A DNA stretch of 64,000 bases from Fodinibius sp. Rm-B-1B1-1. GTDB taxonomy: Bacteria; Bacteroidota; Rhodothermia; Balneolales; Balneolaceae. Location of the stretch: NCBI RefSeq assembly GCF_038594945.1, contig NZ_JBCFYD010000002.1:124001-188000 (forward strand), given 5' to 3'. A program made the translations under genes and the position numbers. Positions within the stretch are counted from its first letter, which is position 1; each line of letters opens with the position of its first letter. Of this stretch, positions 57,546-64,000 are shown piece after piece. The notes under the pieces were generated by a model. That model was not told where the DNA came from, did not search any database, and saw only the letters and a program-made list of their open reading frames with translations.

Positions 57546-58493
57546 ATGGTTGATCGATATCAATATGTAAAAGTATTTGCCCCGGCTTCGGTTGCTAACG
57601 TGAGCTGTGGTTTTGATGTGATGGGATTTGCACTCGACCATCCCGGTGATGAAATCGTAGCACGAAGAACAGAAGAACCGGGAATCCAAATATCAAAAGT
57701 AACTGGTGAACATGGTGTGCTGCCTACCTCGGTAAATGAGAATACGGCGGGAGTAGCGGCCCGGGCGCTGTTAGAACAGTTTGACAGGGAGGTGGGGATT
57801 GAACTCGAAATCCACAAGAAGATGCCGTTGGGCAGTGGACTTGGGTCGAGCGCAGCTAGTTCAGTAGGGGCAGTGGTAGCGGTTAATCACTTGCTGGGAT
57901 TACCCTATGAAACTGATGAATTGCTGGCCTTCGCCGCCGAAGGCGAACGCGTGGCCTGCGGTACGCCTCATCTGGATAATGTGGCCCCATCGCTGTTCGG
58001 AGGGTTTGTTTTTATCCGCAGTAGTGCTCCTCAGGATGTTATCGAGTTGGATTGTCCGAAGCCATTATTTGCTACCGTCGTACATCCTCACATAAAGATT
58101 AGGACAGAAGATACCCGGAAAATTTTGCGGCGCGATATTCCATTACAAAAAGCGGTAACGCAATGGGGGAATGTGGGCGGCTTGGTAGCGGGACTTTTAA
58201 AAGGTGATTATGAGCTCATCTCTCGTTCAATGCAGGATGTAATAATTGAGCCGATCCGGTCGGTGTTGATTCCCGGCTTTGCCGAGGTTAAGGAAGCTGC
58301 ATTGAATACAGGAGCGTTGGGCAGCGGTATTTCCGGATCAGGTCCTTCAATATTTGCGCTCTCTTCTGACAAAGAAACAGCAACAGCCGTAGGAGAAGCA
58401 ATGCGGCAAAAATTTAAAGAAATCGGGCTGGATAACGAGGTGTATATCTCTCCAATTAATACAGAAGGTCCCCAAGTTCTGGAAAAGGCATGA
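57546..58493 (+). CDS. thrB: Homoserine kinase
   Basis: The 315-residue GHMP kinase phosphorylates homoserine. The start is the ATG at 57546 after AGGGAGGAG, one base past the thrA stop; a longer in-frame reading from 57471 would lie within thrA. The GHMP motif PLGSGLGSSAASS (94-106) and LGSGISGSGPSIFAL near the C-terminus are standard. It overlaps thrC by 4 bases. Confidence 0.95.
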   Translation: MVDRYQYVKVFAPASVANVSCGFDVMGFALDHPGDEIVARRTEEPGIQISKVTGEHGVLPTSVNENTAGVAARALLEQFDREVGIELEIHKKMPLGSGLGSSAASSVGAVVAVNHLLGLPYETDELLAFAAEGERVACGTPHLDNVAPSLFGGFVFIRSSAPQDVIELDCPKPLFATVVHPHIKIRTEDTRKILRRDIPLQKAVTQWGNVGGLVAGLLKGDYELISRSMQDVIIEPIRSVLIPGFAEVKEAALNTGALGSGISGSGPSIFALSSDKETATAVGEAMRQKFKEIGLDNEVYISPINTEGPQVLEKA

Positions 58494-59809
58494 AGTATAT
58501 CAGCACAAATGATAAAACACCTCCTGTATCATTTTCGGAGGCCGCCCTTCAAGGGTTGGCGCCCGATGGGGGATTGTATCTTCCTCAATCCTGGCCGCAG
58601 TTACCTAATTCATTTTGGGATCAGCTTGGCCAGAAAAGTTTGCAGGATATTGGTTTTGAAGTTTCTCGATTGTTTGTTGATAGCCTTGAGGATGAGCTGC
58701 TTGAAGAAAATATTAGTGAAGCCCTAAATTTCGATGCTCCGCTGGTTTCATTGGGCAATCACGTATATGTGTTAGAATTATTCCACGGACCCACTTTGGC
58801 CTTTAAGGATTTTGGTGCCCGTTTTATGTCGAGGATATTCTCGGCAATGCGAGGGGGATCTGATCAGGATTTGGTGATTTTAGCTGCCACCTCAGGAGAT
58901 ACCGGGAGCGCTGTGGCACAGGGATTCTTAGGTGTAGAAGGGATTCAGGTTTGCCTGCTCTACCCCAAAGGAAAAGTAAGTTATATTCAAGAACAGCAGC
59001 TAACTACGGCGGGACAAAATGTGACGGCGCTCGAAGTAGAAGGCACGTTTGACGATTGCCAGCGGATGGTAAAAGCGGCGTTTTCGGACCGGTCGCTGAA
59101 CGAAAAATTGCAGCTTAGTTCGGCTAACTCTATTAATATTGCGCGACTTATTCCACAGATGTTTTATTACTATTATGCTATTGGCCAGTTGCGGGAAGGC
59201 AATCCGCCGATTTTTTGTGTCCCCAGTGGAAATTTTGGCAATTTAACAGCGGGATTGATGGCGCAAAAAACGGGGATGCCGGCTGCAGGTTTTATAGCTG
59301 CGACCAATGCAAATGATGTAGTCCCTGAATTTTTAGAGCATGGTGAGTTTCATCCCCGATCTTCGAAAAGAACGATCTCAAACGCTATGGATGTGGGAAA
59401 TCCCAGTAATTTTGCTCGTATTGTTCATCTGTTTGATGGAGATTATCAAAAGATAAAACAAAAAATTTGGGGAGCCTCCTTTTCTGATTCCCAAACTCGG
59501 CAGGCAATAAAGGAAGTCTACCGTGAACACGATTACCTAATGGATCCCCATACGGCCGTAGGATACAGGGCGGTACAACAATATACTGCCTCGGAGCAAG
59601 GGTATTTTAGTGAAAGTGAGTCCACACCAAAAATTATTTTATCTACTGCACATCCTGCAAAATTTGGGGATGTGATTGAGCCTGTTATCAGTGCGAAAAT
59701 TGATATACCCGCCCGGCTTAAAACGTGTTTAAATAAAGAGAAACAAAGTGTGGAGATGTCAGACGATTACGATGATTTAAAAAAGTGGCTGATGGATTCA
59801 TACCGATGA
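58490..59809 (+). CDS. thrC: Threonine synthase
   Basis: The 439-residue PLP enzyme makes threonine from phosphohomoserine. PLP-binding Lys106 lies in FHGPTLAFKDFGARF. LAATSGDTGSAVAQGFLG and VPSGNFGNLTAGL are the other phosphate and PLP contacts. This is the E. coli-like type II enzyme, unlike the paralogue at 59888-61591. It ends the dapB-dapA-dapD-thrA-thrB-thrC operon. Confidence 0.96.
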   Translation: MKYISTNDKTPPVSFSEAALQGLAPDGGLYLPQSWPQLPNSFWDQLGQKSLQDIGFEVSRLFVDSLEDELLEENISEALNFDAPLVSLGNHVYVLELFHGPTLAFKDFGARFMSRIFSAMRGGSDQDLVILAATSGDTGSAVAQGFLGVEGIQVCLLYPKGKVSYIQEQQLTTAGQNVTALEVEGTFDDCQRMVKAAFSDRSLNEKLQLSSANSINIARLIPQMFYYYYAIGQLREGNPPIFCVPSGNFGNLTAGLMAQKTGMPAAGFIAATNANDVVPEFLEHGEFHPRSSKRTISNAMDVGNPSNFARIVHLFDGDYQKIKQKIWGASFSDSQTRQAIKEVYREHDYLMDPHTAVGYRAVQQYTASEQGYFSESESTPKIILSTAHPAKFGDVIEPVISAKIDIPARLKTCLNKEKQSVEMSDDYDDLKKWLMDSYR

Positions 59810-59887: not shown

Positions 59888-61591
59888 TTAAGTCACAGTA
59901 GATTTCATAGCAATGGCTAATCCTTTGGTAAATGCCTGGATGACTGCTTCAAGAGTATCTGGGGAAGCGCCCTTCGAGACCCATTCCTGATCATTGTTAG
60001 CCAGCGTAAGTGTGACAACAACCAGCGAATCCGTATCAGGACTTAGGATATCCACCTCATGATTTTTGACTTCTAAATGGAACACCGAATTCGTTTCGGC
60101 ACGAATAGCTGATAAAATTGCATCAATGGGACCAACGCCTTTTGCTTCGGAGATAATTTCTTCTCCCTGTAGGTCAAGTTTTACGGCCGCTTGTACGAGT
60201 CCGTGCTTGCGCATCGTAAGTTTATAGTCAAGCACTTCGGCAGGGTAATCTAAGTCCAGATCTTCATTAAAGATGAGAGATTGAAGTACTTCAATCTCGT
60301 TGTTACTTAATGTTTTACCCTTCTTATTGATTTTTGATACGTAGTCGTTATACAACTGTTCATGGTCTTCATCCATCTCAAGATTTGCCATAAACGTATC
60401 CCGTGATTTACCCCAGGAATCTTTCTGCATCTCAATGAAGCCCGACTTAATGTAGTTGGTAACTTTATCGATATCAGGGGAAAGTACGGGAGAGGAAAGC
60501 GAATGTTTGGCAACAACCTTCGTATCTTTCAGGCCAGATCCGGTGAGAACAAACAGGCACTTTTTATCCTTAAAGGCATCCATATTGTTTTTGAAGGCTG
60601 CCAGTGGCAAGGCGCAGGCAGGCTCAGTAAAATGACCTTCCTCAACGGCCATCTCTTTGAGAGACTGTAGGATTTCATCTTCCGAAACGGTAAAGGCTGA
60701 GCCATCAGATTCTTCAATTCCCAGCAGTACTTTATGGAAATCCACTGGATCGGAGGCGGCCACAGACTGTGCCATGGTATTTACCTGTTTTTTAATGATT
60801 TTCACTTTTTTGAAAATTCCTTCAACAACAGGAGAACTCTGTTCTGGCTGAATGGCAATCATCTTGGGACGTTCTGATATTTGTCCCGATTCTTTGAGCT
60901 CCGTGAATCCTTTCCAGATAGCTCCGAAGTTAGTTCCGCATCCTACGGGGACGAAGATGTAATCAAAATCGTCTGCTCCTTGCTCCAACAGTTCATAGGC
61001 AAATGATTTTTGGCCTTCCTCACGAAAAACATAATCGCCAGCTAAATAATAATTTCCTGATTTAGCAAACTTTCGGCAGAGAGCTTCACAAGTGCTGAAA
61101 TCGCCTTTAATTCGGATGATATTGGCGTTAAAAATAGTAGCTTGAGCAATCTTTGCGTCCGTTGTTTTTTCGGGGACAAACACAAAACAGGGGATTTTGA
61201 AATAGCAAGCGTAGGCAGCAACCGAAGCGGCCATATTTCCTGTTGAGGCCAGGCATATAGCATCAGCACCAAGCTCTCGGGCTTTCTGTACCTCAATATA
61301 GCTGCCGCGATCTTTAAAACAGCCTGTGGGATGTTCAAATTCAAGTTTCGCCCAGAGGTCGGCACCATATTCATCCGACAGTCGGTCTAATTTTTTGAGA
61401 GCTGAAGGATGAGTTTTCATCGGGTCGGGCACCAGCTCTTTTAGCGGATACTGAATATCATCAGAAGTGGCATCATAAAATACGCGCAGCACACTATCGC
61501 ATTGGGTACAATAGGTTGTGGTTTCTTCTTCAGAGTTAAGGTGTCCGTTAGCTACGCATTTTAACTCGTAGTTTGTTGTTGCACTTGCCAT
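59888..61591 (-). CDS. Threonine-synthase-like PLP enzyme fused to a LeuA-type regulatory domain
   Basis: The 567-residue protein has a short Cys-containing N-terminal segment (CVANGH and CTQC), then a fold-type II PLP domain (about 50-365). The PLP lysine is Lys93 (HPTGCFKDRGS), with CLASTGNMAASVAA (about 113-126) and VPVGCGTNFGA. A linker follows (about 370-450) like the one between catalytic and regulatory parts of isopropylmalate synthases. The end (about 455-567) matches the LeuA allosteric dimer domain: VQAAVKLDLQGEEIISEAKG, then GVGPIDAILSAI. Such domains bind Leu or Ile. I infer a branched-chain-regulated paralogue of thrC. Confidence 0.82.
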   Translation of the reverse strand: MASATTNYELKCVANGHLNSEEETTTYCTQCDSVLRVFYDATSDDIQYPLKELVPDPMKTHPSALKKLDRLSDEYGADLWAKLEFEHPTGCFKDRGSYIEVQKARELGADAICLASTGNMAASVAAYACYFKIPCFVFVPEKTTDAKIAQATIFNANIIRIKGDFSTCEALCRKFAKSGNYYLAGDYVFREEGQKSFAYELLEQGADDFDYIFVPVGCGTNFGAIWKGFTELKESGQISERPKMIAIQPEQSSPVVEGIFKKVKIIKKQVNTMAQSVAASDPVDFHKVLLGIEESDGSAFTVSEDEILQSLKEMAVEEGHFTEPACALPLAAFKNNMDAFKDKKCLFVLTGSGLKDTKVVAKHSLSSPVLSPDIDKVTNYIKSGFIEMQKDSWGKSRDTFMANLEMDEDHEQLYNDYVSKINKKGKTLSNNEIEVLQSLIFNEDLDLDYPAEVLDYKLTMRKHGLVQAAVKLDLQGEEIISEAKGVGPIDAILSAIRAETNSVFHLEVKNHEVDILSPDTDSLVVVTLTLANNDQEWVSKGASPDTLEAVIQAFTKGLAIAMKSTVT

Positions 61592-61702: not shown

Positions 61703-61954
61703 TTAGCTTTTGAGTGGTAGAAGAGAAATTTCGTCAAAATCCATATCCAGTTCATCAAGAATAGGTTCTGCGACTTCAGAAATTTCGTCCGGATCAAGTT
61801 CATCCAAGCCCTCAATTTCAATGAATAAGGTGTTCTGATGTCCAACGACACTGTATCGTGCTTTGTCGGCATTAAAGCACTTGCGAAGCGTATCTACAAG
61901 TACTTTGATGTCGTGCTCATAAGCTTCGTAATCAGCTTTTTCGAGTTCGCTCAT
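61703..61954 (-). CDS. Small acidic protein of unknown function
   Basis: The 83-residue protein is strongly acidic and has no membrane segment. MSELEKADYEAYEHDIKVLV is followed by a beta-rich part (ARYSVVGHQNTLFIEIEG) and an Asp/Glu-rich end. It reads as a real gene: the ATG at 61954 and codon use resemble its neighbours. I do not recognise the family. It lies upstream of the regulated threonine-synthase-like gene on the same strand, with a 111-base gap. Confidence 0.6.
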   Translation of the reverse strand: MSELEKADYEAYEHDIKVLVDTLRKCFNADKARYSVVGHQNTLFIEIEGLDELDPDEISEVAEPILDELDMDFDEISLLPLKS

Positions 61955-62512: not shown

Positions 62513-63415
62513 CTATTTAGAAAGGGTCTCTAACAGGTGCTTATATTCTTTAATAAGCTGACGTCGAATGGGTTGTGACTTTTCATAAATGGACATCTGT
62601 TTTTGCATATATTCTTGACGTCCCTTGTCAGTTTCAATCTTAATGGGTTCCAACCCTCGGTCGCGCAGGTCATAGGGACTGGCTTTCATATCCATAACAC
62701 GTGTTTCAATGGCTAATTCAAAGGCCTGACGAATAGTATTACTCGAAATCCAGGGATACATTTTGAATCCCCATTTATATAGATCCATATTCGTATGCAG
62801 ACAGCCCGGCTGTTCCATCTCGGCAAAGGTATCGCGATTGAGTGCAAACTTATTTTGGGGCTTGGCCTCATCCGTAAAAAAGCGGAAAGCGTCAAAATGT
62901 GTGCAAACCAACGGACGTGATTCTACGAACTCCGCAAGCTCATCTTTGTCCATGCGCAGGGAAAGATAATCATGTCGAACGCGATCAGCTTTGTAAACCA
63001 TGGCCCACTCATGCATTCCAAAACACCCAAACGAAGGTTTTCGGTCAAGCGATTGCTCCAGTACATTTAAAATCCACTTGACGGCAGAAATGCGATCTTT
63101 ATCAAAATGTCGAATGTCAAGAAAACAGTTGCCGCCGGTGGTTTCCATTTCATCAAACATCCAGTCGTTGACAGAGCTGTCCTTTAACAATGTTCCTAAC
63201 CCCGGCGACCAGCGTTTTAAGTAGGAGGGACGAAAAGCGTAGTATTCAAAGAGGAAATCGAGCACGGGATCTTTCTGTTGATGGGATCGACGCTCAAGAT
63301 AATCGTCAATGAGCTCACTGATCGCTTGGGAATGGTTATGTTTTTGTTGCTGCCACTGTTTCGGTGACAACTGCTTGAGAATGTATGCTGGCATTTTTGT
63401 TTCTGTGGAAATCAT
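62513..63415 (-). CDS. Uncharacterised protein often labelled 3-methyladenine DNA glycosylase
   Basis: About 300 residues from the ATG at 63415 (MISTETKMPAYILKQ). Conserved blocks, as I recall from actinobacterial relatives, include FLFEYYAFRPSYLKRWSPG, FGCFGMHEWAMVYKADRVRH, THFDAFRFF, EQPGCLHTNMDLYKWGFKM and SPYDLRDRGLEPIKIET. In databases the family is often called a 3-methyladenine DNA glycosylase, but this is not well proven. An upstream in-frame ATG at 63490 would overlap the divergent UbiA gene start, so I use 63415. Confidence 0.8.
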   Translation of the reverse strand: MISTETKMPAYILKQLSPKQWQQQKHNHSQAISELIDDYLERRSHQQKDPVLDFLFEYYAFRPSYLKRWSPGLGTLLKDSSVNDWMFDEMETTGGNCFLDIRHFDKDRISAVKWILNVLEQSLDRKPSFGCFGMHEWAMVYKADRVRHDYLSLRMDKDELAEFVESRPLVCTHFDAFRFFTDEAKPQNKFALNRDTFAEMEQPGCLHTNMDLYKWGFKMYPWISSNTIRQAFELAIETRVMDMKASPYDLRDRGLEPIKIETDKGRQEYMQKQMSIYEKSQPIRRQLIKEYKHLLETLSK

Positions 63416-63484
63416 AGCCCCAAAGATACCAATTGTTAATTGGATTGATAAGCCTAAATTACTATGCTGATTATCTGAATTGTG

Positions 63485-64000
63485 ATGCAATTAATGAAAG
63501 CCATGAGAGCAGCCAATCGAAATTTAGTGAAGGAGTTGTGGCATTTTGTGCTGCACCTGCGGTGGCATTACCAGCTGTTTATTTTATCCGGTGGTTTCTT
63601 GTTAGGGGGATTGTTGAGCTCGGGCTTGGAGATATGGTCGTTCATAATACAGTTTTTGAATGTTCACTTGCTGCTTTTTGGGGGTGCCACGGTTTATAAT
63701 TCGTATTGGGATAAGGATGAAGGTCCTATTGGGGGGCTCAAACATCCCCCGAAAATAGTACCATGGATGTGGGGCGCTTCGTTGATTTTTCAATTTATAG
63801 GTTTTGGAATAGCGATAAGAGAAGGAGTTGTGTTCACAGGCATTTATGGATCGAGTATGTTTTTTTTCTGGCTGTATTCTACACCACTGGCACGATGGAA
63901 AGGTCATCCCATAAAAAGCTTGGTGGCCATCGGTGTGAGTACGGGCTTAAACGCTGTGTTAATGGGTTATCTGGCAGCTGGAAATTCTCAACTGCCATTT
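63485..64000 (+). CDS. UbiA-family prenyltransferase (partial, 3' end outside window)
   Basis: 172 residues are visible. Hydrophobic segments occur at about 28-49, 54-75, 98-118 and 122-137. The first Asp-rich motif has the form NSYWDKDEGPIGGLKH (N-x3-D-x-D), the prenyl-diphosphate metal site of the UbiA superfamily. The acceptor (quinone, chlorin or other) cannot be told from the visible part. Alternative starts at 63494 or 63503 are possible. It is divergent from the gene at 62513-63415. Confidence 0.78.
   Translation, partial: MQLMKAMRAANRNLVKELWHFVLHLRWHYQLFILSGGFLLGGLLSSGLEIWSFIIQFLNVHLLLFGGATVYNSYWDKDEGPIGGLKHPPKIVPWMWGASLIFQFIGFGIAIREGVVFTGIYGSSMFFFWLYSTPLARWKGHPIKSLVAIGVSTGLNAVLMGYLAAGNSQLPF

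Follow-up and report, generated by a model that had tools for sequence, protein, structure and literature searches.

The window analysed here is a 64,000-nt stretch of the Fodinibius sp. Rm-B-1B1-1 genome (contig NZ_JBCFYD010000002.1, positions 124,001 to 188,000), and positions below refer to it unless a genome handle is given. It contains an open reading frame with an ATG start that encodes a protein of 567 residues (Table 1). The Pfam scan of this protein matches PF00291 at residues 62-351 (218.6 bits, E 1.6e-64) and PF08502 (LeuA_dimer) at residues 437-558 (63.8 bits, E 1.9e-17, against a gathering cut-off of 24.9). It finds nothing beyond these two, and in particular neither the HMGL-like synthase domain PF00682 nor PF00585. 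The NCBIfam LeuA models reach further upstream than PF08502, fitting from residue 407 or 414 to residue 563 (414-563 for NF002085). The first-pass annotation had proposed, from the letters alone, a PLP enzyme of the threonine synthase type fused to a LeuA-type domain, and both domains are indeed found above their cut-offs in a single protein. The three motifs on which that proposal relied are also in place: the PLP lysine K93 in CFKDRG, STGN at 116-119, and GVGPxDA at 485-491 (claimed as GxGPIDA). K93, S116-N119 and G485-P488 do not vary across the 43 distinct orthologues, and D490 and A491 are present in 42. The thrC model TIGR00260 is passed by the window protein (178.4 bits, cut-off 167.1) and by 10 of 16 fusion orthologues, the other six falling below. 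The N-terminal segment has a fourth cysteine, at position 15, in 31 of the 43 distinct sequences, which gives a ribbon-like CxxC...CxxC pattern; in the remaining 12 this residue (window about 61547-61549) is Asn or His, being Asn in the window protein. The predicted model of the full-length fusion is only moderate (pLDDT 70.3, pTM 0.57).

Table 1. Features of the fusion locus, with the LeuA gene of the same genome. Positions are those of the window unless a handle is given.
Feature	Position	Strand
567-aa fusion protein made up of an N-terminal Cys motif, a PLP fold-type II domain, a linker, helices like the LeuA hinge and a LeuA regulatory domain	59888..61591	-
N-terminal segment, residues 8-40: Cys12, Cys28, Cys31	61472..61570	-
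PF00291 catalytic domain, residues 62-351: Lys93 in CFKDRG, STGNM 116-120, AGDYVFREEGQK 184-195, GCGTN 217-221	60539..61408	-
Two-helix stretch, about residues 407-436, resembling LeuA subdomain II	60284..60373	-
LeuA regulatory domain with GVGPIDA 485-491 and His511	59918..60283	-
Acidic protein of 83 aa without a known family, encoded immediately upstream of the fusion gene	61703..61954	-
Canonical thrC (PF14821+PF00291+THR4_C), the cell's likely threonine synthase	58490..59809	+
LeuA of the window genome, ending after the hinge	G000:C2:61036-62220 (L010:1120-2304)	

The small acidic protein is the most constant companion of the fusion. In the window its reading frame ends 111 nt before the fusion gene, and a tblastn search places it on the same strand and immediately upstream at 55 of the 59 fusion loci (sets L012-L035 and L053-L087, which include some genomes fetched twice). 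At the four loci without it, contig ends leave only 120-214 nt of upstream sequence. The spacing between the two genes is 36-587 nt, a range that excludes L032, and in L035 they overlap by 1 nt. Twelve further stretches (L154-L165, comprising eleven new genomes and one repeat) have the small protein in all but G122, that is in 10 of 11 genomes, with spacings of 6, 5 and 12 nt in G118, G119 and G138. The small gene and the fusion gene are thus a conserved two-gene unit, newly recognised here. When 27 members of the small protein were compared with Pfam and NCBIfam to E 0.1, only scattered weak matches appeared, no family matching more than 3 of the 27; its profile gave scattered weak matches and no consistent family in the PDB, and the plasmid records held no match.

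The fusion is a paralogue of the canonical thrC, and the two genes adjoin in the window as the first-pass annotation had stated; as a conserved trait this does not hold, with thrC beside the fusion in only 2 of 24 loci (L013, L015), and on that count a conserved operon with thrABC was rejected. The gene dapD lies in the stretch downstream of the fusion gene in 15 of the 24 loci, and AnmK upstream was confirmed in the three neighbours scanned. The comparison of neighbours across the 24 loci gave no conserved operon besides the small-gene/fusion pair. A 325-aa protein with no Pfam match (window 62513-63490, reverse strand) is encoded near the fusion gene in 11 of the 24. An Rfam scan of the window gave nothing at the gathering score, and hence no known riboswitch.

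A contig scan with six exact peptide patterns, which reaches close relatives only, recovers the full-length fusion at 24 loci from records named as Aliifodinibius, Fodinibius, Gracilimonas, Balneola, Balneolaceae, one Rhodothermia and two Bacteroidetes. The bearers are marine and salt-loving bacteria, and include A. salipaludis WN023, F. halophilus 2W32, G. mengyeensis DSM 21985, G. amylolytica LA399 and Balneola sp. EhC07. Its presence in 24 named records, isolates included, means that it is no assembly artefact. A search across the class matched 53 of 244 genomes at E <=1e-60, all in the window's own order, Balneolales to judge by the record titles, three of the matches being partial or fragments on contig ends. 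In a draw of 394 genomes from the phylum, 35 have the full-length fusion, again all Balneolales, and in 28 others the match is restricted to the catalytic part, with at most 205 bits. It is absent from one genus of the same family (g11) and from family f2, and 405 plasmid records match the catalytic part, none of them covering 80% of the query. Within the phylum genomes sampled, the fusion is therefore confined to a single order.

The identity of the C-terminal tail is best seen from its fold. Folded alone, it retrieves in Foldseek, at ranks 1-12, LeuA of M. tuberculosis (1sr9, 3hpz, 3fig, 3hps) and the regulatory domain of Leptospira citramalate synthase (3f6g, 3f6h), with E values of 8.6e-9 to 5e-7 (3f6h aligns with an rmsd of 2.5 and TM 0.79 over the target). 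The next match, an unrelated Dicer complex at rank 13, has E 2.2e-4. The sequence-only search of the PDB with the tail profile is weak, the unrelated kinectin (E 0.0033) and phycoerythrocyanin (0.026) preceding Leptospira citramalate synthase (LiCMS, E 0.19), so that the LeuA/CimA identity is settled by the structure search. The tail profile aligns with E. coli LeuA over 147 columns (LeuA 350-498, E 9.2e-6, about 24% identity), spanning both the hinge and the regulatory domain. Against the organism's own CimA (L011) the match is shorter (92 columns, E 7.5e-5), and against its own short LeuA the profile gives no alignment. The fusion therefore shares with LeuA the regulatory fold, the GxGP loop and the hinge helices, but has no TIM-barrel synthase domain. 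With CimA, whose synthase domain it also lacks, it shares the regulatory fold, whereas the hinge matches that of LeuA and not that of CimA.

In LeuA the leucine pocket is described (PMC10464499, PMC11057210) as hydrophobic and formed by the regulatory domains at the dimer interface, with the linker relaying the signal. Ile515 and Val524 of the fusion are nearly invariant among the 43 distinct orthologues and correspond to an Ile and a Val in CimA (I458 and V468 of LiCMS). We take the effector pocket of LiCMS to consist of Y430, D431, L451, Y454, I458, V468, P493 and Q495; the fusion has at these positions I, M, L or V489, D490 (42 of 43), V508, H511 (43 of 43), I515, V524, P544 and T546. As judged from the aligned residues, the effector pocket thus appears mostly retained, with His511 in place of the LeuA/CimA Tyr. 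Leu or Ile is a plausible effector, although with Tyr changed to His the effector may be other than a branched-chain amino acid. It is unlikely, though better placed than the alternatives discussed below, that the tail is a ligand-free dimerisation scaffold. LeuA_dimer is after all a dimerisation domain, and the replacement of the pocket Tyr by His throughout would suit such a role; but the GxGP loop is invariant, Asp490 and the Ile515/Val524 pair are conserved as described, and in the genome pairs computed the tail is under purifying selection as strong as that on the catalytic part.

For the catalytic part, the nearest solved relatives are threonine synthases, both in a sequence search and in a fold search, as the first-pass annotation had expected. 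The fusion has in common with class II threonine synthase (6cgq, 1uim, 2zsj, 2d1f; TIGR00260) the fold, the PLP lysine motif, the STGN loop, EGQK and the C-terminal LTGxGLKD, so that Lys93, STGN, LTGxGLKD, EGQK and the loop Arg190 are all retained. It differs in having an additional Cys-rich N-terminus and the LeuA tail, and in changes within the catalytic part itself, among them STGNM for STGNT. Nine threonine synthases (five PDB chains, L129, L147, L151 and the thrC of the window) have Asn-Ser before the loop Arg, followed by a GNxGN loop. In the Thermus enzyme these loop residues hold the phosphate of phosphohomoserine. The fusion counterparts are AGDYVFREEGQK, where Asn-Ser is replaced by Gly185-Asp186 in a shorter loop, and G[CA]GTN, the pattern GxGTN being present in 43 of 43; Gly185, Asp186, Arg190, Thr220 and Asn221 are invariant in the 43 distinct sequences. 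The earlier suggestion that the reaction may differ from that of threonine synthase is upheld. However, annotated threonine synthases of haloarchaea (L148-L150) and of Bacteroidota (L117-L128, L130, L131) also lack Asn-Ser-x-Asn-Pro-x-Arg, and therefore the loss of the loop cannot by itself exclude threonine synthase activity. A 36-row tree unites its ten fusion rows in a single clade (100/100). This clade falls on the side of the threonine synthases, separated from IlvA and the Ser/Thr dehydratases with 99/99 support, although several branches are long and the deeper order is unsure.

The longest structural alignment is not to a threonine synthase but to CapA2 of Alistipes finegoldii (9k3c), covering 376 residues (model 1-386, Z 28.8) at 20% identity and including the N-terminal part; the aligned CapA2 chain has no LeuA tail. 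This alignment would suit a beta-replacement enzyme, for example one resembling cysteate synthase, that joins O-phosphoserine and sulfite for sulfonolipids and responds to leucine because the iso-fatty acids of the lipid derive from leucine. Auxotrophs for amino acids would need such an enzyme as well. We nevertheless consider it quite unlikely: the cysteate synthase model TIGR03844 scores only 47.2 bits against a cut-off of 324.9, the assignment of CapA2 as a cysteate synthase is taken from its name, and the genome has a separate CapA/CBS-like gene that scores 460 bits with NF053679, short of the cut-off of 600 for that model. That gene lies between ATP-synthase-like and menaquinone-like genes, with no cap-like neighbours recognised by eye, and for the fusion protein NF053679 is not among the best 25 of the 43 NCBIfam families matched.

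Among 16 genomes that carry the fusion, canonical thrC is present in 14, homoserine dehydrogenase in all 16 and an IlvA with PF00585 in 10; in 14 of the 16, therefore, the job of threonine synthase is already taken. The two without canonical thrC (G001 and G003, also entered as G033 and G034) lack thrB as well. A wider pathway test compared 44 fusion genomes, those left of the 53 once nine that were fragmentary or less complete had been set aside, with 20 fusion-free relatives, all 89-100% complete. Homoserine kinase (TIGR00191) is above its cut-off in 33 of 44 fusion genomes and 16 of 20 fusion-free ones, being under the cut-off or absent in 11 of the 44; since this model also fails in 3 of 14 control genomes, unusual homoserine kinases could escape detection. 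PF00682 (LeuA/CimA) is present in 31 of 44 and 15 of 20, and IlvC in 31 of 44 and 14 of 20. PF00682 and IlvC are missing from the same 13 fusion genomes, 10 of which lack thrB too. Fisher tests of fusion presence against thrB, PF00682 and IlvC gave no association (p 0.77, 1.0 and 0.76). For three genome pairs pN/pS was computed, with dS near saturation; in the auxotroph pair G033/G034 both domains are under strong purifying selection (0.029 and 0.022), and the catalytic lysine, STGN and the effector loop are intact in the auxotroph rows shown. The gene is kept without thrB or the branched-chain genes and so outlives both pathways, and its retention where threonine and leucine synthesis seem to be missing makes a function other than threonine synthesis probable. 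In view of the retention counts, the Fisher tests and the Gly-Asp loop, the coupling of threonine supply to branched-chain amino acids that the first-pass annotation had drawn is not supported. As to homoserine dehydrogenase, the window genome has two such genes, whose frames (827 and 809 aa) have the size of aspartokinase fusions (G000:C2:180915-181505 and G000:C1:1513361-1513948), and G001 and G003 have one each, of 807 and 811 aa.

On these results we regard it as very unlikely that the fusion is a second threonine synthase, using O-phosphohomoserine under feedback control by Leu or Ile. Its score against TIGR00260, its closest structures, the retention of Arg190 and EGQK, and the position of the gene beside thrABC in the window all speak for that reading. 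Against it stand the 11 of 44 bearers without a recognised thrB, the two without canonical thrC, the replacement of both Asn-Ser and GNxGN in 43 of 43 distinct sequences, and the rarity of the thrC neighbourhood. It is just as unlikely that the fusion is a threonine deaminase of isoleucine biosynthesis whose usual ACT-like regulatory domain has given way to the LeuA domain. Threonine deaminases generally carry branched-chain sensors, and like IlvA with PF00585 the fusion combines a fold-type II PLP enzyme with a C-terminal amino-acid sensor, the sensor domain being a different one. Six of the 16 genomes, including that of the window, have no PF00585 IlvA. However, IlvA and the fusion coexist in the other ten genomes. 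In three of the six, a further PF08502 protein has the size of a CimA, and the remaining three have lost LeuA/CimA and IlvC, so that there is no isoleucine pathway to feed. The tree, which places the fusion in a clade separate from the deaminases, argues against a deaminase by descent.

It is worth adding that the order's own LeuA lacks the domain that the fusion carries. A LeuA-type PF00682 match was found in 46 genomes, in a frame of 394-471 aa in 45 of them and of 503 aa in G122, and all 29 LeuA tails read (L088-L116) stop soon after the hinge. By frame length, LeuA is thus without a regulatory domain in 45 of 46 genomes, and it is apparently unregulated across most of the order. The exception, G122, has both a LeuA of 495 aa with PF08502 and the fusion. 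Since bearers and non-bearers of the fusion alike have lost the LeuA domain, the fusion does not explain the loss. In 13 of 16 genomes the fusion is the sole PF08502 protein, the other three having a second one of CimA size, and CimA was confirmed in the window genome. That the fusion supplies in trans the domain missing from the short LeuA, as its being the sole PF08502 protein might suggest, is extremely improbable and was rejected, because 13 of the 44 fusion genomes contain no PF00682 protein at all, because G122 has a full-length LeuA as well, and because fusion-free genera also have the short LeuA.

We class the fusion as a PLP enzyme with a transplanted LeuA sensor and not as a ThrC, both modules being already known. 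The explanation that we prefer, with a probability of roughly one half, is that it is a fold-type II PLP lyase specific to Balneolales, onto which a LeuA tail has been grafted, gated by branched-chain amino acids and acting on a substrate other than O-phosphohomoserine. On this explanation a complete LeuA signalling tail, hinge helices and regulatory domain together, would have been grafted onto a PLP enzyme from the threonine-synthase side. By analogy with LeuA and CimA, the tail would dimerise and bind Leu, Ile or Val at the interface between the domains, and the signal would pass through the hinge to the PLP domain. The enzyme would not be a phosphohomoserine-dependent threonine synthase, but would act on another small amino acid that is available to auxotrophs too. 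The small acidic protein would be its co-expressed partner. For the reaction, the single best bet is the elimination or deamination of threonine or serine to a 2-oxo acid, with the level of the branched-chain amino acid telling the enzyme whether amino acids are plentiful; we would expect this proposal to fail rather more often than to succeed.

The fusion may also represent a new enzyme family, in which the LeuA hinge and sensor have moved whole onto an unrelated fold to give a PLP lyase gated by branched-chain amino acids, with a substrate other than O-phosphohomoserine and an orphan acidic partner, in an order whose own LeuA lacks that module; we put this forward tentatively, at a little under even odds. 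In the open-access literature searched, no paper naming the PF00291 plus PF08502 architecture was found. If the proposal is correct, nature has treated the leucine-sensing LeuA tail as a portable allosteric module and placed it, hinge included, on a different catalytic fold, which would offer a natural template to those who engineer enzymes gated by amino acids. An annotation would need correcting as well, in that the threonine synthase model passes most fusions although many bearers seem to be phosphohomoserine-free. The two-gene unit with the small partner offers a concrete handle on the function of the fusion.

Two loci deserve a remark. In G026 the fusion copy (G026:C1:1782666-1784360) has one TAG inside the matched stretch. 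In a reduced genome of 1.5 Mb, an ammonium transporter gene lies directly upstream of the two-gene unit (L035:4273-7701).
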